Origin: Aeropyrum camini SY1 = JCM 12091
GTDB lineage: Archaea > Thermoproteota > Thermoprotei_A > Sulfolobales > Acidilobaceae
DNA: 64,000 bases
Direction: 5' to 3'
Assembly (NCBI RefSeq): GCF_000591035.1
Contig: NC_022521.1
Location: 1,302,001 to 1,366,000, forward strand
Each line of letters starts with the position of its first letter. Position 1 is the first letter of the stretch. Shown piece by piece: positions 21,968 through 53,682 of this stretch. The notes beneath the pieces were generated by a model. The model did no database searches. It was not told the origin of the DNA and was given only the letters and a program-made list of their open reading frames with translations. Position numbers and translations under genes: made by a program.

Positions 21968-22723
21968 CTAGCCAGCTAGGCTGGGCGCCATATAAAGTTC
22001 CATCTTCTCACCGTTTGGGAATGTGTACTCTATTTTCATCGGGTAGTCGCTTGCGAACGATACTTTAACGCTTTCGGCGGCCCCCACGGGCTTTGTGGCT
22101 ATCTCCAGGACCTGCCTAGAGTATATCGACTTAGCGTTCTCCTCAACCTCCAGGCTGAGAAGCACATCGCCGGGCTTCATAACCCACTCGTACTCCTTCT
22201 CCTCGGCCTGGCTCCTAACGACTACCTGCCCCTCGCTGGCCTCGAACTCGGCGAAGTCGCCTACGACCTTGACATCCTGGATCATTGCTTTAAGGTCGTC
22301 AGTTAGAATGGTGAAGGACACCGTGGGCTCGAGCTTGAGCCTCCTCATCTCCTCCGCACCAACGGAGGTGGCGGGAACCAGGAACTTCCGGGAGAACCCC
22401 AGCTTCCTGTCTCTCAACTCCACTTCAAGAGCCTGCTCCTCCGCATTCCACTGGAAAACAATGTCATCGTTTCTCGTGGCCCTCCTCGATATCTTATTCA
22501 GCTCGTCCGTCCTCAAAACTACCCTCATCTCCTCCTCAACCATGTACTCGTCGAAGCTAAGCGAAGGCATCTCCAGTATAGCCAGGCTAGTCTTATCGGG
22601 GCTCATTATCCACGCTCTCAAACCGTCAAGAGAGAACTCGAAGACGCCCTCATCGTTTATCTTAGCCAGGGTCTGGGCAATATACTTGAACTTAGTCGAT
22701 GCAGTGTAAACCAGCCTGAACAA
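21968..22723 (-). CDS. pcn: PCNA sliding clamp
   Basis: This is the replication clamp that holds polymerase, FEN1 and ligase on DNA. From TTG 22723 it is 251 residues, beginning [19 protein letters not shown] as expected for the family. GGGGGTG lies seven bases upstream and decides the start over in-frame GTG 22729 and the frame opening at 22756. The interdomain connector and C-terminal segment ([19 protein letters not shown]) are intact. Aeropyrum carries several PCNA paralogues that form mixed rings. This is one of them; which one I cannot say. Confidence 0.95.
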
Positions 22724-46133: not shown

Positions 46134-46255
46134 ACCCCCCGAGCCCCACGCTACACCCACATTTTTAACCTCGCATGCTCCTAACCCCTATCCATACTGG
46201 GGCTATAGAAGCTTCTAGCCCTGGGTTAAGCTACTGTATTCGAGGTTGGTGTTTG

Positions 46256-47149
46256 ATGGAGGGGGAGTGGGAGAGATTCCTGAGGCAGCTTACCCCGGAG
46301 AAGCTTGAGTATCTCCTCCGGAGCAGGGATTACATACCCAGCAAGGACCTCCTTATGGCCCTCTACCTGGCCCTGAAGCTTGGGAAGCCTCTTCTGGTCG
46401 AGGGGGAGCCGGGTAACGGTAAGACGGAGCTCGCCAAGGTTCTCGCCGAGGCCCTGGGAACAGAGCTGATAAGACTCCAGTGCTACGAGGGTATAGACGC
46501 CTCCCAGGCCCTCTACGACTGGAACTATCCTAAGCAGCTGCTTGCTATAAGGATGTTGGAGAGGAGTGGTGATGTGGAGAGTATAGAGCGGGAGATCTAC
46601 TCTGAGAAGTACCTGGTGAAGGGGCCGCTCCTAAGGGCGGTCACATACAGGGGGCCTAAGCCCCCCGTCCTGCTGATAGACGAGGTTGACAGGGCCGACG
46701 AGGAGTTCGAGGCTTTCCTCCTCGAGTTCCTCGCCGAGTTCCAGGTGACGGTGCCGGAGATAGGCACCTTCAGGGCGGAGAAGAGGCCTATAGTGATAAT
46801 CACCTCGAACAGGACACGGGAGGTTGGCGAGGGTCTCAGGAGGAGGTGTCTCTACGTCTACGTAACCTACCCGCCCAAGGAGAGGGAGGTGGAGATAGTT
46901 ATGAGGAGGGTGAAGGGTGTTGAGAGGAGGCTTGTGGAGAAGGCTGTAGACGTTGTGGCCAGGATAAGGGCGTCTGAGGCTGTTTTGAAGAAGCCGGGCG
47001 TCTCCGAGACCATAGACTGGGTGGAGGGGCTGAGGGCCCTCGGCTACAGGGATATAGACAGGAGGGCCCTAGAGGACACGGTCTCCTGCCTGTTCAAGGC
47101 CAGGGAGGACCTAGAGGCGGTCTCCCTAGACGACCTTCTAGGGGGCTAA
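46256..47149 (+). CDS. coxD: MoxR-type AAA ATPase (CoxD-like)
   Basis: This is an AAA+ chaperone of 297 residues from ATG 46256. Walker A GEPGNGKTEL (about 42-51), Walker B LLIDEVDRADEEFE (about 138-151), sensor 1 ITSNRTREV and an arginine finger region RRRCLYVYV are intact. CoxD relatives work with CoxE in inserting sulfur or metal into the Mo active site. The preceding TTTTTAACC (about 46161-46169) may be its own promoter. A frame extended to 46175 would cover the leader and is rejected. Confidence 0.9.
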   Translation: MEGEWERFLRQLTPEKLEYLLRSRDYIPSKDLLMALYLALKLGKPLLVEGEPGNGKTELAKVLAEALGTELIRLQCYEGIDASQALYDWNYPKQLLAIRMLERSGDVESIEREIYSEKYLVKGPLLRAVTYRGPKPPVLLIDEVDRADEEFEAFLLEFLAEFQVTVPEIGTFRAEKRPIVIITSNRTREVGEGLRRRCLYVYVTYPPKEREVEIVMRRVKGVERRLVEKAVDVVARIRASEAVLKKPGVSETIDWVEGLRALGYRDIDRRALEDTVSCLFKAREDLEAVSLDDLLGG

Positions 47150-47156
47150 CGCGGCT

Positions 47157-48242
47157 TTGCAGGCAGTAGGCCTGGAGGAGAGGGTTGTAGAGTTCGCCAG
47201 ACTCCTCCGGGAGAACGGGATAAGATGCACAGTCGCCGAATCCATAGACGCGGCCCTCGCCGCGAGCCTCGTAGGCACAGAGGACCTCGAGAGGCTGAAG
47301 CAGGCCCTCAGAGCGGCGCTGGCCAAAGACCCAGGTCGCCACAGGCTCTTCGACTACCTCTTCGACGTCTACTGGAGGGGGGCCTGGACGGCTATTCAGG
47401 TCCCAGGGAGGAGGGTCGCTGTCAAGGTGGAGGTTGAGGCGGGGAGCCCGGTTGAGAGGTTCCTAAGCATCTACAGCCCCGTGGACGCTAGCTGGGGCGA
47501 ACCCGGTGTTGACCTCCCCTCACCCAGCCAGGCCAGGGCTCTATACAGGAGCCTAGTCCTCCTCAGGAGGAGGCTGGGCTTGGAGGAGGGGAGAAGGCGG
47601 GTTCCTAGGAGGAGGGGTATGATCGACTTCAGAAGGTCTATGAGGAGGTCGCTCAGGACTTTCGGGGAGACCGTGAGGCTGGCCAGGTCTAGCAGGAAGA
47701 GGAGCAAGACCGACATACTAGTGCTGCTGGACGTGAGCAACTCTATGAAGGACTACTGGCCGTGGATACTGGGAATCCTAAACTCCCTCCGACGGCTACC
47801 GCCGGGCAGCTACGAGGCTTTCCTCTTCAGCACCAGGCTCGTTAGAGCCACCCCTCTGGTGGAGGCAGCCGGGGGGGCTGAGGACCTCAGGAGGTTTGTA
47901 TCCCGCGTGGAAGGCCTATGGGGGAGCGGCACCAGGATAAGCCAGTCTGTGGAGGAGCTGCTTGAGAACTACGGCCCCACGTTGCACAGGGGCGCCGCCG
48001 CCCTGGTGTTCAGCGACGGCTGGGACCTGGGCGACCTGAGACAGCTGGAGGCGGCTTTGGCCGAGTTGAGGCGGAGGGTTGGCTTCCTCGTATGGGTAAC
48101 CCCTGAGTCGCCGAGGAGGGACGCGGGGGGCGAGCCCTCGACTATGAGGGTAATACGGCGTCAAGCCCACCTCACCATAGACCTCGAGACCCTGCTTAAC
48201 ACCAGGAAGCTCCTAAGACTCCTCCCCAGACTCACCGGCTAG
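47157..48242 (+). CDS. coxE: vWA-domain protein (CoxE-like)
   Basis: This is the partner of the MoxR ATPase, 361 residues. The N-terminal half is helical and basic. The C-terminal vWA domain carries the MIDAS motif LLDVSNSMKD (about 189-198, D-x-S-x-S) and the later Thr and Asp ligands (GSGTRIS; VFSDGWDLGD). MoxR-vWA pairs are dedicated maturation machines. TTG start 7 nt behind coxD. The 3' end overlaps the convergent MobA-like gene by 30 bp. Confidence 0.9.
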   Translation: MQAVGLEERVVEFARLLRENGIRCTVAESIDAALAASLVGTEDLERLKQALRAALAKDPGRHRLFDYLFDVYWRGAWTAIQVPGRRVAVKVEVEAGSPVERFLSIYSPVDASWGEPGVDLPSPSQARALYRSLVLLRRRLGLEEGRRRVPRRRGMIDFRRSMRRSLRTFGETVRLARSSRKRSKTDILVLLDVSNSMKDYWPWILGILNSLRRLPPGSYEAFLFSTRLVRATPLVEAAGGAEDLRRFVSRVEGLWGSGTRISQSVEELLENYGPTLHRGAAALVFSDGWDLGDLRQLEAALAELRRRVGFLVWVTPESPRRDAGGEPSTMRVIRRQAHLTIDLETLLNTRKLLRLLPRLTG

Positions 48243-48905
48243 CCTAGAGCATTTTCTCGAAGCCCTATCCAGGTCCTCCGGAGTGTCTATGTCAAGGTGT
48301 AGCCCGGGGTCGTCAACCTCCACGACCTCCATGCGCCCCCTGTACTTCCCGAAGAGGCTCCTAACCCCGGTATCCCCCGAGAGCCTAAGCAGCTCGCCCC
48401 GCAGCCTGGAGTCCACGACTACGGGAGGGGCTATAGCCCCGCCAGCCATGGGGGCCGCTATAAGCGGCCTCCTGGCCATGTAGAGGGCGAGGACCCTGGC
48501 GACCGTGAGCCTAGAGACGAAAGGCCTGTCGCCGTTGAAGAACAGGTAGGCCCTGGCCCTGGGGGCGGCTTCAACCCCTAGCTTGACGGAGCTGCTCAAA
48601 CCCTTCCACGGCTCCCGGTTCACCACAACCCTGAAGAACCCCGGCCTCCCCGGAGGCCTCTCCCTCCCCAGGACCTCGGCTACCTCGCTGTTCGTAACAA
48701 CAACCGCACCCTCCAGAACACCCTCAAAACCCGCTACAAGCTCTAGAACGTGCCACAGAACCCTCTTCCCGCAGAGGGGTGCGAGCAGCTTGTTAAACCC
48801 CATCCTCCTCGAGAGGCCCGCAGCGAGCACTACGGCAAATACCCCTGACCTGGGCCTGAGCACGCCCGCCGCGGATAGTGCCATCAGGGTGTCGAGACCC
48901 TCCAT
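48213..48905 (-). CDS. MobA/MocA-like molybdopterin nucleotidyltransferase
   Basis: The product is 230 residues. The nucleotidyltransferase signature LAAGLSRRMGFNKLL (about 28-42) and FFNGDRPFVS (about 122-131, metal Asp) identify a MobA/MocA-type enzyme. In this setting it most likely attaches CMP to molybdopterin to make the cytosine dinucleotide used by CoxL-type enzymes; the nucleotide preference is inferred from context. It runs against the cluster and overlaps coxE by 30 bp. Confidence 0.88.
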   Translation of the reverse strand: MEGLDTLMALSAAGVLRPRSGVFAVVLAAGLSRRMGFNKLLAPLCGKRVLWHVLELVAGFEGVLEGAVVVTNSEVAEVLGRERPPGRPGFFRVVVNREPWKGLSSSVKLGVEAAPRARAYLFFNGDRPFVSRLTVARVLALYMARRPLIAAPMAGGAIAPPVVVDSRLRGELLRLSGDTGVRSLFGKYRGRMEVVEVDDPGLHLDIDTPEDLDRASRKCSRLAGESGEES

Positions 48906-48990
48906 GGCTCGCGACCCTTACCTCGAACTCATGGCCAGGTTAAGTAGTTCGGAAGCCTGCATATAACATAATTATTGAGGGGCTGGAGCA

Positions 48991-49437
48991 TTGAAGGTTA
49001 GGTATGAAGGCTCCTTCGAGGTCTCTAAGACTCCTGAGGAGGTTTTCGAGTTCCTCACCGACCCACGCAGGTTCTCCCGCGCCTTCCCAGGTTTCAAGTC
49101 CGTCGAGGTCGACGACGGAACGTTCACCATAGAGCTCAGGCTGAGCCTAGGACCTCTCCGCGGGGATGCGAGGGTTAAGGCCTCATTCGAGGACCTGGAG
49201 AAGCCTAGCAGGGCCACGGTGAGGGGCTCGGGCAGGGGCGCTGGCAGCACCCTCGACTTCACCCTAACCTTCACAGTAGAGCCCTCCGGAGGGGGCAGCA
49301 GGGTCAGCTGGGTTTTCGAGGGCAATGTAGGAGGCCTCGCTGCCAGCATGGGGGGCAGGGTGCTCGACAGCCTGGCAAGGAGGATGATAAACGACGTGAT
49401 AGCGGGGGTGAAGAGGGAGCTGGGCGAGGCGGGCTAG
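48991..49437 (+). CDS. coxG: CoxG-like SRPBCC protein
   Basis: The product is 148 residues of the SRPBCC/CoxG family. It opens KVRYEGSFEVSKTPEEVFEFL with the PRRFSRAFPGFKSVE segment typical of CoxG, and ends in a long helix (DSLARRMINDVIAGVKREL). CoxG has been proposed to recruit its enzyme to the membrane or to bind hydrophobic quinones. Here it supports membrane coupling of the Mo hydroxylase. TTG start with GAGGGG upstream. Confidence 0.88.
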   Translation: MKVRYEGSFEVSKTPEEVFEFLTDPRRFSRAFPGFKSVEVDDGTFTIELRLSLGPLRGDARVKASFEDLEKPSRATVRGSGRGAGSTLDFTLTFTVEPSGGGSRVSWVFEGNVGGLAASMGGRVLDSLARRMINDVIAGVKRELGEAG

Positions 49438-49526
49438 CCCCCTCACCCCAGGGTTTTACTCATGCTTATCACCCTTGGCCGCCCGTCTTGCTACACTGGG
49501 GCTAGGGTTTAGGTGGTGCGTAAAAG

Positions 49527-50423
49527 GTGGGAGGAGGCTACAGGTTCGACGAGGAGAGCCTCCGGGAGTTTGTGGATATGGTCAGCAGGCTTATGGAGGA
49601 GGAGAGGGAGTTCGTCATAGCCACCGTTGTCAGCGTGAGGGGCTCGGCGGCGGCGAGGGTGGGATCGAAGGGGGTTATACTACCCGACGGCACGGTAAAG
49701 GGGTGGCTTGGGGGGTGGTGTAGCGAGAACGCGCTGCTCACAGTAGCCCTCTCGGCCTTGAAGGAGGGGAGGCCGAAGCTTGTCAAGCTGGTCATGTCGG
49801 GCGAGACCCTTAAGCAGGTCTCCGAGGACGTTATAGAGGTGGGCACCCCATGCGGCGGAGAGGTGCTGGTCTACTTGGAGCCAGCCTACCCCAAGCCCCA
49901 TATACCGATATTCGGCCATAATGAGGTCACGAAGACCCTCTCCAGGCTGGCCCAGCTGCTCGGTTTCAAGGTCACCGTGGTCGACGCTGCAGCGAGGCCG
50001 GAGGACTACCCGGGGGCCAGGGTTCTCCCCTCCCTGGACGAGGCCGGAGTAAGGCTGGACCGCCACACATACCCGGTCCTCGCCACAATGGGCAGGACAG
50101 ACGTCGATGTGGAGATACTGCTCCGGATACTCGGCAAGCCTGTGGCTAGGGTCTTCCTAGTGGCTAGCGTGAACAGGGCGGAGGAGGTTCTAAGGAGGCT
50201 GGCGAGGAAAGGGGTGCCCCCGGAGCACCTGGAGAAGATAGAGAGCCCCGCGGGCATAGACCTGGGGGCCTCGACGCCGGAGGAGCTGGCCCTCAGCGTG
50301 CTGGCGGGCGTGGTAGCGGCTAGGAGGGGCGGTAGCGGCAGGCCGATGAGAGAGGTCAAGGGAGACCCCGTGGCCAAGGTGGTCAGAGAGCTTAGGAAAA
50401 AAGCCGAGGCTACCCCCTCTTAG
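49527..50423 (+). CDS. coxF: XdhC/CoxF-family molybdenum cofactor maturation protein
   Basis: The product is 298 residues. The N-terminal XdhC/CoxI domain has FVIATVVSVRGSAAARVG (about 32-49) and GWLGGWCSENAL (about 62-73), whose Cys is typical. The C-terminal part is the Rossmann-like XdhC domain (IPIFGHNEVTKTLSRLAQLL, about 129-148; GIDLGASTPEELALSVL near the end). XdhC proteins receive sulfur and load the sulfurated cofactor into the apoenzyme. The 3' end overlaps the convergent TusA-like gene by 14 bp. Confidence 0.92.
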   Translation: MGGGYRFDEESLREFVDMVSRLMEEEREFVIATVVSVRGSAAARVGSKGVILPDGTVKGWLGGWCSENALLTVALSALKEGRPKLVKLVMSGETLKQVSEDVIEVGTPCGGEVLVYLEPAYPKPHIPIFGHNEVTKTLSRLAQLLGFKVTVVDAAARPEDYPGARVLPSLDEAGVRLDRHTYPVLATMGRTDVDVEILLRILGKPVARVFLVASVNRAEEVLRRLARKGVPPEHLEKIESPAGIDLGASTPEELALSVLAGVVAARRGGSGRPMREVKGDPVAKVVRELRKKAEATPS

Positions 50424-50625
50424 TCACAACCGCCTCCCCACCGCCAAGACTCACGATCTCCACCATGCCGAGCTCGGAAAGCCTCTCCAGGGTAAGCCTA
50501 ACCTCCCCCTCCTGGCCCCCCTCATAGACAAACCTAATCCTATCACCAACCCTAGCCCTCCTCAGGGCTGTTACGATGGCTGCAAAAACGCCGCCACACC
50601 GCCTAGCCTCTGCAACTAGATCCAC
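50410..50625 (-). CDS. Small TusA-like (SirA fold) protein
   Basis: The product is about 71 residues from GTG 50625, which has GAGGTG six bases upstream; an in-frame GTG at 50664 would give 84. The layout beta-(Cys)-helix-beta-helix-beta (VDLVAEARRCGGVFAAIV, GDRIRFVYEG, LERLSELGMVEIVSLGGG) matches TusA sulfur carriers in length and pattern. The usual CPxP motif is CGGV here: the Cys is kept and both Pro are lost. Its place against XdhC suggests sulfur transfer to the Mo cofactor. The family call is by pattern only. Confidence 0.5.
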   Translation of the reverse strand: MDLVAEARRCGGVFAAIVTALRRARVGDRIRFVYEGGQEGEVRLTLERLSELGMVEIVSLGGGEAVVTKRG

Positions 50626-50801
50626 AACAGCACCTCTAGCAGCCAGGGTGCACCACCCCAGCACCCGGAGCAGAGCCTCGTACCGGGGGGTGCTGAGGAC
50701 CTCGCTGGCCCAAACACCCCCAGCCCACGATACTAGATATTATGCTGGGATCTTGTAAGCGTTAGACTGTATGGTCTTGCCCGGAGGGGCTGAGGGTCGG
50801 G

Positions 50802-52715
50802 CTATGGCTGGCGTTGGCGGGGCTGTTTGGGCAGCTCCTCGGCCGCCCTTTGTAGGAGAGTTATGTAGTATAGCCTGTCTATACTCCGGGGCGGCCCCTG
50901 CCATACTGGGTGCGGTCTTCCTCCCCCGGCTACAACGTATTTTACCGTGGGCGTCTGGATGGGGCTTTTAACCCACGCTCTTCTCCACGGCGTGTTCCTC
51001 GAGGAGGAGGGGTCTACCCTCCTCTCTATAACCAGCTTCTCTATCGGCGGTGTGCCCTCTCTAAGAAGCTTCACATACCTCCCTATCTCCCCCCACGCCC
51101 TCTCCACGGCCCCGGGCCACTCCCCGGGGTGCCTGGCCTCCGCCAGCCTTGCTATGGCTGACGCCTGCGCCTCCCTAACTATCTCAGGCGTGTCCCGCCT
51201 GACGGCCGCCACCCCCTTCAGCTTCACGCCCCCGCTCTCCAGGGCGCCGTAATACTTGTTAACCGCGCCGTGGCCCCTCCTGGTGGGAGGTATGTAGAGC
51301 CACGTATACTCGGCCTCTATCTTCACGGGAACCCCAGTCCGCCTCTCAATCTCCCAGGCGACCTCCCCTGGGGTGCCGCGGGGCTCCACTGGCTGTATGA
51401 AGATGGAGTCTACCAGGGAGTGTATGAGCCTATACCCCATCTCCACAGCCACCTCCTCCGCAGCGGCCAGAGCCCTCCTGGCAGCGGCCGTCACAGTCTC
51501 GTAGGCCGCTATGCTGCCGAAGAGGCTGTTCCTGAAGCCTAGGTAGCCGAAGCCGGAGACGAGTATCCACTTTATAGCCTCCTGCTCCTCCCTCAGCCCC
51601 CGCCTCCGGGCCTCGTCCCTGAGGGCCACAAGCCTGCCGAGGACCTCGGATACAAGCCCCCTCCTATCCATACACATCCTGTGCCCCCCGTAGCCGGGCG
51701 CGGGGTCTAGGGTGTTCTCGCACGGCGTGTCGACAGTTTCGGCGCTTATGTTATACATGGAGATGAGCCTCGGGTAGAGGCTAGAGTAGTCCAGCTGTAC
51801 AACCCCCCAGTAAACACCGGGCTCGGGCAGTCTAGCAGCCCCCGGCATGTCAGACTCCACAAGGCTCCTGAGGCTCCTGAACCTCTCGTGCCGGGGCGCA
51901 CGCTCGTCCAGGAGGTACCTCCTCCTATAAGCCTCCCTAGCCTCAGCCGCGGTCAGCACCCTGCCTATAGGGGCTCCATGGGCCATTGTGTAGGGCAGCC
52001 AGGATAGCCTCATCCACACTACGAGGCCCCGAGGCCCCACCAGGTTCCTGTCGGGCTCGAACCACATGTACTCGCGGAACCGGGAGGAACCCTCCAGAAT
52101 TAGCCTCACCGGGCTTCTGGCAACGACTACATGGGGCCTGCAGCCCCTGAGCACATCCAAAGCCCCGTCGACACTACCCACCGCCTCCTCCCAGCCTCCA
52201 CACACTACCTTGAACCGTCCAGGCTTCTCCACGGGGCTGGATATGGGGCCGTGCCAGGAGTAGGCCTCCACGACAGCCAAAGACAGGACCTCATAATCCT
52301 CGAGGGGGCCGCACACCCTGCCCAGGGGGCAGCCGGGGCGGAGGCCCAGGCGCCAGAGGACCTCCACCAGGGGGCCTGGATACTTGTTAACCCTCCTAGC
52401 AACTCCCCGGGCCTCGAGGGCCGAGGCCACACGCCCAACCCCTTCCCACCCGCCCTCCACAACAACGACCTCCACCAGCCTGTCATACCTGGGGGGAGAC
52501 AGCCAGTCCTCCACCCAGGCCTCCACACCCTCCGCCTCCACGCCCCTGGCCAGGGTGCTGGCATCCGTGTTGATGGGGAGTAGGTAGGCGCGGGCCGCCG
52601 CCCCGACATTCAGGGCCTCGAGCCCCCCGCCCGGCGATGCTACTGTTAGCTGGAGCAGTCTGCCGCCGAGGGGCTCAGCGTCAAGTATGAGCCTCTCCCC
52701 CACCCTCCCCACCAC
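50802..52715 (-). CDS. polB2: PolB2-like family B DNA polymerase with altered active-site motifs
   Basis: The product is 637 residues. The C-terminal half is a B-family palm and fingers domain: motif A LDYSSLYPRLI (D309) is intact. Motif B is KWILVSGFGYLG (from K382), with the usual Asn-Ser changed. Motif C reads HSLVDSIF (432-439) where active enzymes have YxDTDSIF, so the first Asp is replaced by Leu and only D436 remains. The N-terminal half is short for an exonuclease domain and lacks recognisable exo motifs. This fits the crenarchaeal PolB2 group, regarded as weakly active or non-catalytic. GTG start; it overlaps the upstream small gene by 35 bp. Confidence 0.85.
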   Translation of the reverse strand: MVGRVGERLILDAEPLGGRLLQLTVASPGGGLEALNVGAAARAYLLPINTDASTLARGVEAEGVEAWVEDWLSPPRYDRLVEVVVVEGGWEGVGRVASALEARGVARRVNKYPGPLVEVLWRLGLRPGCPLGRVCGPLEDYEVLSLAVVEAYSWHGPISSPVEKPGRFKVVCGGWEEAVGSVDGALDVLRGCRPHVVVARSPVRLILEGSSRFREYMWFEPDRNLVGPRGLVVWMRLSWLPYTMAHGAPIGRVLTAAEAREAYRRRYLLDERAPRHERFRSLRSLVESDMPGAARLPEPGVYWGVVQLDYSSLYPRLISMYNISAETVDTPCENTLDPAPGYGGHRMCMDRRGLVSEVLGRLVALRDEARRRGLREEQEAIKWILVSGFGYLGFRNSLFGSIAAYETVTAAARRALAAAEEVAVEMGYRLIHSLVDSIFIQPVEPRGTPGEVAWEIERRTGVPVKIEAEYTWLYIPPTRRGHGAVNKYYGALESGGVKLKGVAAVRRDTPEIVREAQASAIARLAEARHPGEWPGAVERAWGEIGRYVKLLREGTPPIEKLVIERRVDPSSSRNTPWRRAWVKSPIQTPTVKYVVAGGGRPHPVWQGPPRSIDRLYYITLLQRAAEELPKQPRQRQP

Positions 52716-52941
52716 TCCCCCTGCAGGACCTCGCTGCCTCCAGTATCATCGCTATGTAGACGGGCTCCATGGGGTCGCTCATCGGCACGTACCTGTAGGC
52801 CTCCAGTATCCTCCTGTAGCTGGAGAGCAGGTCCTCGAGGAGCCTCCTATCCTCGCTGCTCCTAAGGTGGCGGATGAGCCTGCGGAGCCTCTCAACCTCA
52901 GCCTCTACAAGTACTCTTCCAGGGGCCGCTGTCCTGCCCAT
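52681..52941 (-). CDS. Small helical protein between RecA-like and PolB2 genes
   Basis: The product is 86 residues, almost all helical and highly charged (VLVEAEVERLRRLIRHLRSS; RRLLEDLLSSYRRILEAYRY), with a Gly-rich tail. No known motif is seen. It overlaps the RecA-like gene by 37 bp upstream and polB2 by 35 bp downstream, so all three are probably translated together and made in a fixed ratio. It is likely an adaptor between the two larger proteins. Confidence 0.7.
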   Translation of the reverse strand: MGRTAAPGRVLVEAEVERLRRLIRHLRSSEDRRLLEDLLSSYRRILEAYRYVPMSDPMEPVYIAMILEAARSCRGSGGEGGGEAHT

Positions 52942-53570
52942 AGGAGCCTCACCCCCAACTCAGGCTCGGGGGCTAGAGCGGCCTGGGGCACGGGCTTCGC
53001 CGGGTGCTTCAGCAGCGTAGCAAACACCCCCCGCCCCCTCCACTCAGCCCGGGCTATCACGTGGACGCTGTGGTGGTGGAAGTGGCCCCCCTCAGGCCTT
53101 AGCCTCCCGAACTGGGAGACCCTGTTAGCAACGAAAACAAGGCTATCCCGGGCGGCGGCGCGGAGGGCCCCCGTTATGCGGGTTAGGAGGCTGTATGCCA
53201 GAGGGGTTCTGGGGGCGAACCTGAAGGGGTCCACCACGGCAACCGTGCCAGCGCCTGTTGAGGAGGCCTCCACCACCAGGCTGGCCACGTCGTGGAGCCT
53301 GAAGGCCCGGGCGAACAGTATGTTCCCCGGGTCCCCGCCCCTCAGCCTGGAGAGCCTGGCCGCCAGGTAGGGGTCGAACCCGCCGAAGTCCTGCACGTTA
53401 ACAACAGCCACCCTACCCCTGCGGGAAGCCTCAGCCACCGCGGTATGGGCCAGAAGCCTCGCCGCACCCCCATAGACCTCCACAACCCAGCCCGACCGAG
53501 GCACCGGGTTCAGGAGCCTGTCGAGAGTGGGGACGCCAGTAACACCCGTCAACACCCCGCACCTCGCCAA
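52905..53570 (-). CDS. Degenerate RecA/RadA-superfamily protein
   Basis: The product is 221 residues. The opening TGVPTLDRLLN...GWVVEVYGG has the RadA/KaiC-style lead into the P-loop, but the P-loop itself reads GGAARLLAHT (34-43) without the GK(S/T) core. The Walker B position is VAVVDPFRF (111-119, D114 kept). ATP binding is therefore doubtful. The rest (LFVANRV, VIARAEWRGRGVFATLLKHP) follows the RecA core pattern. TTG 53570 lies about 26 nt behind a TATA-like CATTTATC, so it is probably leaderless and heads the operon with polB2. Confidence 0.75.
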   Translation of the reverse strand: MARCGVLTGVTGVPTLDRLLNPVPRSGWVVEVYGGAARLLAHTAVAEASRRGRVAVVNVQDFGGFDPYLAARLSRLRGGDPGNILFARAFRLHDVASLVVEASSTGAGTVAVVDPFRFAPRTPLAYSLLTRITGALRAAARDSLVFVANRVSQFGRLRPEGGHFHHHSVHVIARAEWRGRGVFATLLKHPAKPVPQAALAPEPELGVRLLWAGQRPLEEYL

Positions 53571-53682
53571 TGTGAAAAGCCGTCCTGCTGATAAATGCGG
53601 CGGGGTAACGTGGAACCACGGGCCCCCTCACCCTCCCAAACCTAACCAGGGCTGAGCTGTAAGAAACCCGTCTACACCAGGG

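Follow-up and report, generated by a model that had tools for sequence, protein, structure and literature searches.

An archaeal operon encoding iRadA, PPB2 (arCOG07300), and PolB2 (also called Dpo2) was predicted by Makarova 2014 (PMC4104785), and the three proteins have been modelled as a heteropentameric mutasome (Timinskas 2025; PMC11791011). Feng 2020 and 2022 demonstrated that the Sulfolobus enzyme is active. The Sulfolobus islandicus Dpo2, whose motif C reads IID, performs robust primer extension and has no exonuclease activity (PMC8764526), and damage-induced mutagenesis depends on this polymerase (PMC7390963). An MGRT sequence and Arg9 at the N-terminus are the hallmarks of PPB2 (PMC11791011). 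A clamp-binding motif in iRadA or PolB2 is known from some mutasome members.

The E. coli Pol V mutasome (UmuD'2C-RecA) has a similar outline: a damage-tolerance polymerase, a RecA-family subunit, and a small subunit whose N-terminal arm is inserted (PMC11791011). However, its polymerase belongs to the Y family, its RecA is active, its small subunit is unrelated, and the complexes are not homologous. Eukaryotic Pol zeta (Rev3-Rev7-Pol31-Pol32) shares with the archaeal system a family-B extender, in which the exonuclease domain is dead, and the presence of small partners (PMC11791011), but the partners are unrelated and a Rad51-family subunit is absent.

The PolB2 operon of Aeropyrum camini

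The window analysed here is a 64,000-nucleotide stretch of the closed 1.6-Mb genome of Aeropyrum camini. Three minus-strand ORFs, in the order iRadA-PPB2-PolB2, occupy positions 50802-53570. They are present as described in the initial annotation, with overlaps of 37 and 35 bp. The iRadA (pseudo-RadA/Rad51) ORF (53570..52905, minus strand) starts with TTG and encodes 221 amino acid residues. The PPB2 ORF (52941..52681, minus strand) starts with ATG and encodes a helical, arCOG07300-type protein of 86 residues. The PolB2 ORF (52715..50802, minus strand) starts with GTG and encodes 637 residues. The iRadA and PPB2 ORFs overlap out of frame by 37 bp (52905..52941, minus strand), where iRadA ends in WAGQRPLEEYL* and PPB2 encodes MGRTAAPGRVLV. 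The PPB2 and PolB2 ORFs overlap by 35 bp (52681..52715, minus strand), while the start codon of PolB2 is ambiguous; three in-frame GTG codons give an overlap of 35, 32, or 23 bp. This second overlap was considered as a conserved feature and dropped because its length differs among relatives. A TATA-like sequence GCATTTATCA (53589..53598, minus strand), judged by eye, lies about 24 nt before the TTG codon of iRadA, and the TTG start may be near-leaderless.

The AF2 models, their Foldseek matches, and the MGRT...R9 hallmark of PPB2 assign the three proteins to their families, and the operon is the known PolB2 mutasome operon. Descriptions of both the operon and the role it likely plays have already been published; the main finding is a correct rediscovery. 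As in S. islandicus and other archaea, the same three genes are present, iRadA has lost its ATP site, PPB2 has the MGRT arm, PolB2 lacks the first aspartate of motif C, and, by family, PolB2 has no working exonuclease. In an alignment of 14 PPB2 sequences, G2 and R3 are invariant and T4 and R9 are near-invariant.

The surroundings of the operon were also inspected. Neither Orc1/Cdc6 nor LexA, which have been reported to adjoin the operon in other genomes, was found among the six neighbours scanned. The adjoining region (window 46175-50423) has genes of the CO-dehydrogenase/xanthine-dehydrogenase maturation type (MoxR-like AAA, VWA CoxE-like, MobA-like, CoxG, and XdhC). An 84-aa ORF without a Pfam match lies directly downstream of PolB2 (window 50410-50664, minus strand).

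Catalytic residues of iRadA and PolB2

For iRadA, the Pfam and PDB sequence searches gave no usable match (the closest relevant one was RadB, E 0.77), and its identification needed a structure model and a profile alignment. The AF2 model (pLDDT 84.9) has DMC1/RAD51/RadA as its best Foldseek matches (E about 1e-10), and the profile alignment runs along the RadA of the same genome. iRadA has a Rad51 fold with the N-terminal helical domain absent and the ATP site lost. Unlike an active RadA/Rad51 recombinase, it has no Walker A sequence GxxxxGK[ST]; the GEFGSGKT of RadA is aligned to YG-G-AARL, and the degenerate region (53451..53480, minus strand) reads EVYGGAARLL in place of ELFGEFGSGKTQ. The initial annotation had noticed a RecA-like protein without the P-loop lysine, and the same is true of its homologues, as no member of the iRadA family alignment has GK[ST] at this position. 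iRadA is best regarded as a pseudo-recombinase scaffold, and the reading that it is degenerate and therefore structural holds for this protein.

PolB2 has a Pfam DNA_pol_B match (E 7e-14), and its AF2 model (pLDDT 89.6) matches family-B polymerases over the full length in Foldseek (E 5e-31). Motif A (QLDYSSLYPRL; 51765..51797, minus strand) retains D309 and Y314, and motif B (KWILVSGFGYLG; 51537..51572, minus strand) has K382. Motif C (51405..51422, minus strand) is HSLVDS, where L434 replaces the first aspartate and D436 is retained, in contrast to the YGDTDS of canonical family-B replicases and of both other family-B polymerases of this genome. The damaged motif C pointed out previously is therefore real, and yet it is ordinary for the family. 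The first aspartate is found in 0 of 89 PolB2 sequences (I in 51, L in 28, M in 9, N in 1), which is a rule of this sample, as some PolB2s elsewhere retain DxD (PMC11791011). D309, K382, and D436 are invariant in all 89.

Other residues of PolB2 are less ordinary. In the D(K/R) motif, here D289-M290 (51846..51851, minus strand), the aspartate is present in 89/89 sequences, and the next residue is R or K in 74 and M in 7. R316, which follows SLYP in motif A, was found elsewhere only in a congener, G004, while Lys is found at this position in two other sequences. In Feng 2020, the Aeropyrum PolB2 is described as a variant. The YxGG change described there was considered as a lineage-specific trait and set aside; G-V at 304-305 is frequent in the family (20/89 sequences have G and 69/89 have V), which leaves R316 as the only change that looks lineage-specific. 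In addition, the IGRVLTAAEAREAYRR segment of PolB2 (51921..51968, minus strand) fits, in position and pattern, the Rad51-like oligomerisation motif through which PolB2 has been proposed to bind iRadA (PMC11791011). I250, G251, L254, E258, and A262 in this segment are invariant in 17 PolB2 sequences.

Is PolB2 broken? The initial annotation regarded the locus as encoding two degenerate enzymes and suggested a structural or regulatory complex at damaged DNA in place of ordinary synthesis and recombination. On this view, the complex would be catalytically dead and would bind damaged DNA or stalled forks without synthesis. A hypothesis close to this one was put forward by Makarova 2014 (PMC4104785) and was overturned for PolB2 by later biochemistry. 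The missing P-loop of iRadA, the lost aspartate, the oddities R316 and M290, and the variant status given to the Aeropyrum protein would all suit a dead complex. However, the other catalytic residues of PolB2 are invariant, the full fold is retained, the dN/dS ratio is 0.17 (see below), and Sulfolobus Dpo2 is robustly active with the same motif-C loss (PMC8764526). A complex without synthesis is thus improbable. What stands from the earlier proposal is the real and conserved operon, the lost ATP site of iRadA, and, likely, the complex of the three proteins; the exclusion of synthesis does not stand for PolB2. The reading preferred here is that PolB2 is a working translesion polymerase and that a pseudo-recombinase serves as its scaffold. 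By analogy with Dpo2, polymerase activity of the window PolB2 is likely, while R316 and M290, carried by both Aeropyrum-type PolB2s, mean that activity may have been lost in this lineage. R316 marks a lineage in which the activity of PolB2 needs measuring before being assumed.

Distribution, gene order, and selection

PolB2 is present in 18 of 60 relative genomes. When the linkage was looked for in these genomes, strong matches to both iRadA and PPB2 were found in 17 of the 18; in the remaining genome, a MAG of 75% completeness, PolB2 lies at a contig edge. Among the genomes lacking PolB2, there was no strong match to iRadA or PPB2, only a few weak ones (E 3e-4 to 0.01). Owing to this co-occurrence and joint absence, the association of the three genes is more than chance. 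On the other hand, the tight conservation of the operon layout claimed in the initial annotation is too strong a statement, as order and strand differ among relatives. The three genes may be contiguous as iRadA-PPB2-PolB2, iRadA and PPB2 may be divergent from PolB2, the order may be PPB2-PolB2-iRadA, or the genes may be dispersed. Most Sulfolobales loci examined have the order PPB2-PolB2-iRadA, in contrast to the window with its dual-coded junction. It is the 37-bp iRadA/PPB2 junction that is strikingly constant.

A search of the window genome and of 36 genomes from its family gave no Y-family polymerase, which sets this genome apart from the described mutasome carriers, as do R316 and M290. 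Two of the 60 genomes (G045 and G055) have a Y-family polymerase, and both belong to another family, f11.

Comparison with the congener G004 gave dN/dS ratios of 0.10 for iRadA, 0.23 for PPB2, and 0.17 for PolB2, indicating purifying selection. The nucleotide divergence from G004 is a few percent at 52500-52900 (PPB2 and the start of PolB2) and about 13% in iRadA. PPB2 has only 4 synonymous differences from that of G004. The drop in divergence may reflect recombination or constraint. The zero divergence in both overlaps (0/72 sites) was considered as extra support and given little weight, because divergence is low across the whole PPB2 gene and the start of PolB2.

Another congener, the Aeropyrum sp. 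MAG G005 (locus L073 is from the same contig), has a different arrangement. Its polB2 (contig C14, L041:1-2036, and L165) is split in a non-conserved linker into two head-to-head ORFs, the N-terminal one on the plus strand (1365-2036) and the C-terminal one on the minus strand (3-1223), running to the contig edge. The iRadA and PPB2 genes are intact about 20 kb from the split polB2. This may be either a real rearrangement or a misassembly of the MAG. Inverted repeats that would make the split gene an invertible switch were looked for, and none was found. The CO-dehydrogenase/xanthine-dehydrogenase maturation gene set lies beside the split polB2 together with CoxS/L/M-like genes, and an ORF resembling the 84-aa ORF of the window adjoins xdhC (L041:11974-12321). 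Two overlapping PolB2 ORFs were also seen in a low-coverage MAG (L097:4670-6632), which is probably a frameshift error or a split gene. Is the lineage losing the PolB2 system, with the window operon in decay? The patchy distribution within the family and the opposed pieces of polB2 in G005, away from iRadA and PPB2, are compatible with decay, but neither the window copy nor that of G004 is broken, both evolve under purifying selection, and decay is very improbable.

The 37-bp iRadA/PPB2 junction

The new part of this study is that a 37-bp stretch, whose length is unchanged between distant archaea, encodes in its two frames the conserved ends of two proteins. No earlier description of it was found: the main text of PMC11791011 deals with the MGRT arm and the clamp motif as separate topics and never uses the word "overlap", and a literature search on PolB2, overlapping genes, and PCNA in journals open without subscription gave no paper. 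The overlap is 37 bp in 23 loci, 40 bp in 1, and 49 bp in 6, all in phase. In the iRadA frame it usually reads W..Q..L.E[WY]L followed by the stop codon, a PCNA-binding-like tail; in the PPB2 frame it reads MGRT..S.R, the conserved arm. In the window, the PIP-like QRPLEEYL (iRadA residues 214-221; 52908..52931, minus strand) has a pLDDT below 50 and is disordered-like, ending in EYL rather than EWL. The PPB2 arm MGRTAAPGR (52915..52941, minus strand) was recognised by alignment, and its function is taken from PMC11791011.

Since archaeal operons commonly have short overlaps and some bases are fixed by the protein sequence of PPB2, the junction might be merely a device for translational coupling or an ancestral accident that became frozen, with the PIP-like tail as a by-product of the PPB2 sequence. 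The codons of PPB2 were resampled from the usage of each locus, with the PPB2 protein held fixed. The clamp pattern Q..[LIVM]..[WYF][LIVMF] occurs in the iRadA frame of 24 of the 30 overlapping loci, against 0.74 expected; for the window locus, the chance of the pattern is 3.5e-4. In clusters at 50, 60, and 70% PolB2 identity, which are not fully independent, so that formal P values are not to be taken literally, the tail is found in 9/12, 15/19, and 16/20, against 0.29, 0.47, and 0.54 expected. The bases left free by PPB2 are those that the tail needs: codon 4 is NCA in 24/30, codon 7 is NCT in 27/30, and codon 9 is NGA in 27/30. None of the 43 non-overlapping PPB2 starts carries the pattern. 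Moreover, iRadAs not overlapping PPB2 often keep a weaker, related ..LLxW tail, so the overlap alone does not produce the tail. An accidental or purely coupling origin is therefore improbable. Loci from a later search (L145, L147, and L152) agree with this result, as does the congener G005, whose iRadA ends in WDVQPRLLEWL*. In three loci (L039, L040, and L061), iRadA lies more than 1.1 kb from PPB2 and ends in YQPLS[AV]WF, which is near the canonical PIP pattern.

The sequence pattern predicts that the iRadA tail binds PCNA. Three PCNA genes are present in the genome, and its PolB of 803 aa also has a tail of this kind, QSTLLDFM. One of the PCNA genes is in the window (22415-22702, minus strand) and has the weakest match to the Pfam model of the three (E 1e-5).

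Taken together, it is highly probable that the operon encodes a PolB2 translesion-synthesis complex with a putative clamp tether and a dual-coded junction. PolB2 would be an exonuclease-dead family-B polymerase that is still competent in catalysis and extends primers beyond the damage, its two metals probably bound via D309, D436, and other ligands that replace the first aspartate of motif C. Damage induction has been observed in Sulfolobales; the initial annotation had mentioned the inducibility of Sulfolobus PolB2, in agreement with PMC7390963 and PMC11791011. iRadA, unable to bind ATP, would dock on PolB2 via the Rad51-oligomerisation-like segment, and its QRPLEEYL tail may tether the complex to PCNA. 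According to the published models, from which the complex formation and the arm contacts are taken, PPB2 would be a trimeric helical subunit that inserts its MGRT arm between PolB2, iRadA, and DNA, close to the active site. With the tail and the arm on the same 37 bp, the two contacts would be genetically tied, and the overlap could couple PPB2 translation to iRadA termination.

A broader proposal, which I hold with somewhat better than even confidence, is that in a large part of Thermoproteota a selected out-of-frame overlap of fixed length (37 bp, or 40/49 bp in phase) keeps the iRadA tail that binds the clamp and the PPB2 arm that contacts DNA and polymerase in one indivisible stretch, that the junction may help set the subunit ratios, and that the complex is the main translesion polymerase in this lineage lacking Y-family polymerases. 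The locus offers a clean test of whether PolB2 can act as a translesion polymerase where Y-family partners are absent. The 37-bp junction is a compact example of a single DNA sequence that has carried two protein-interaction motifs across long evolutionary distances, and mutations silent in one of the frames can separate the motifs.
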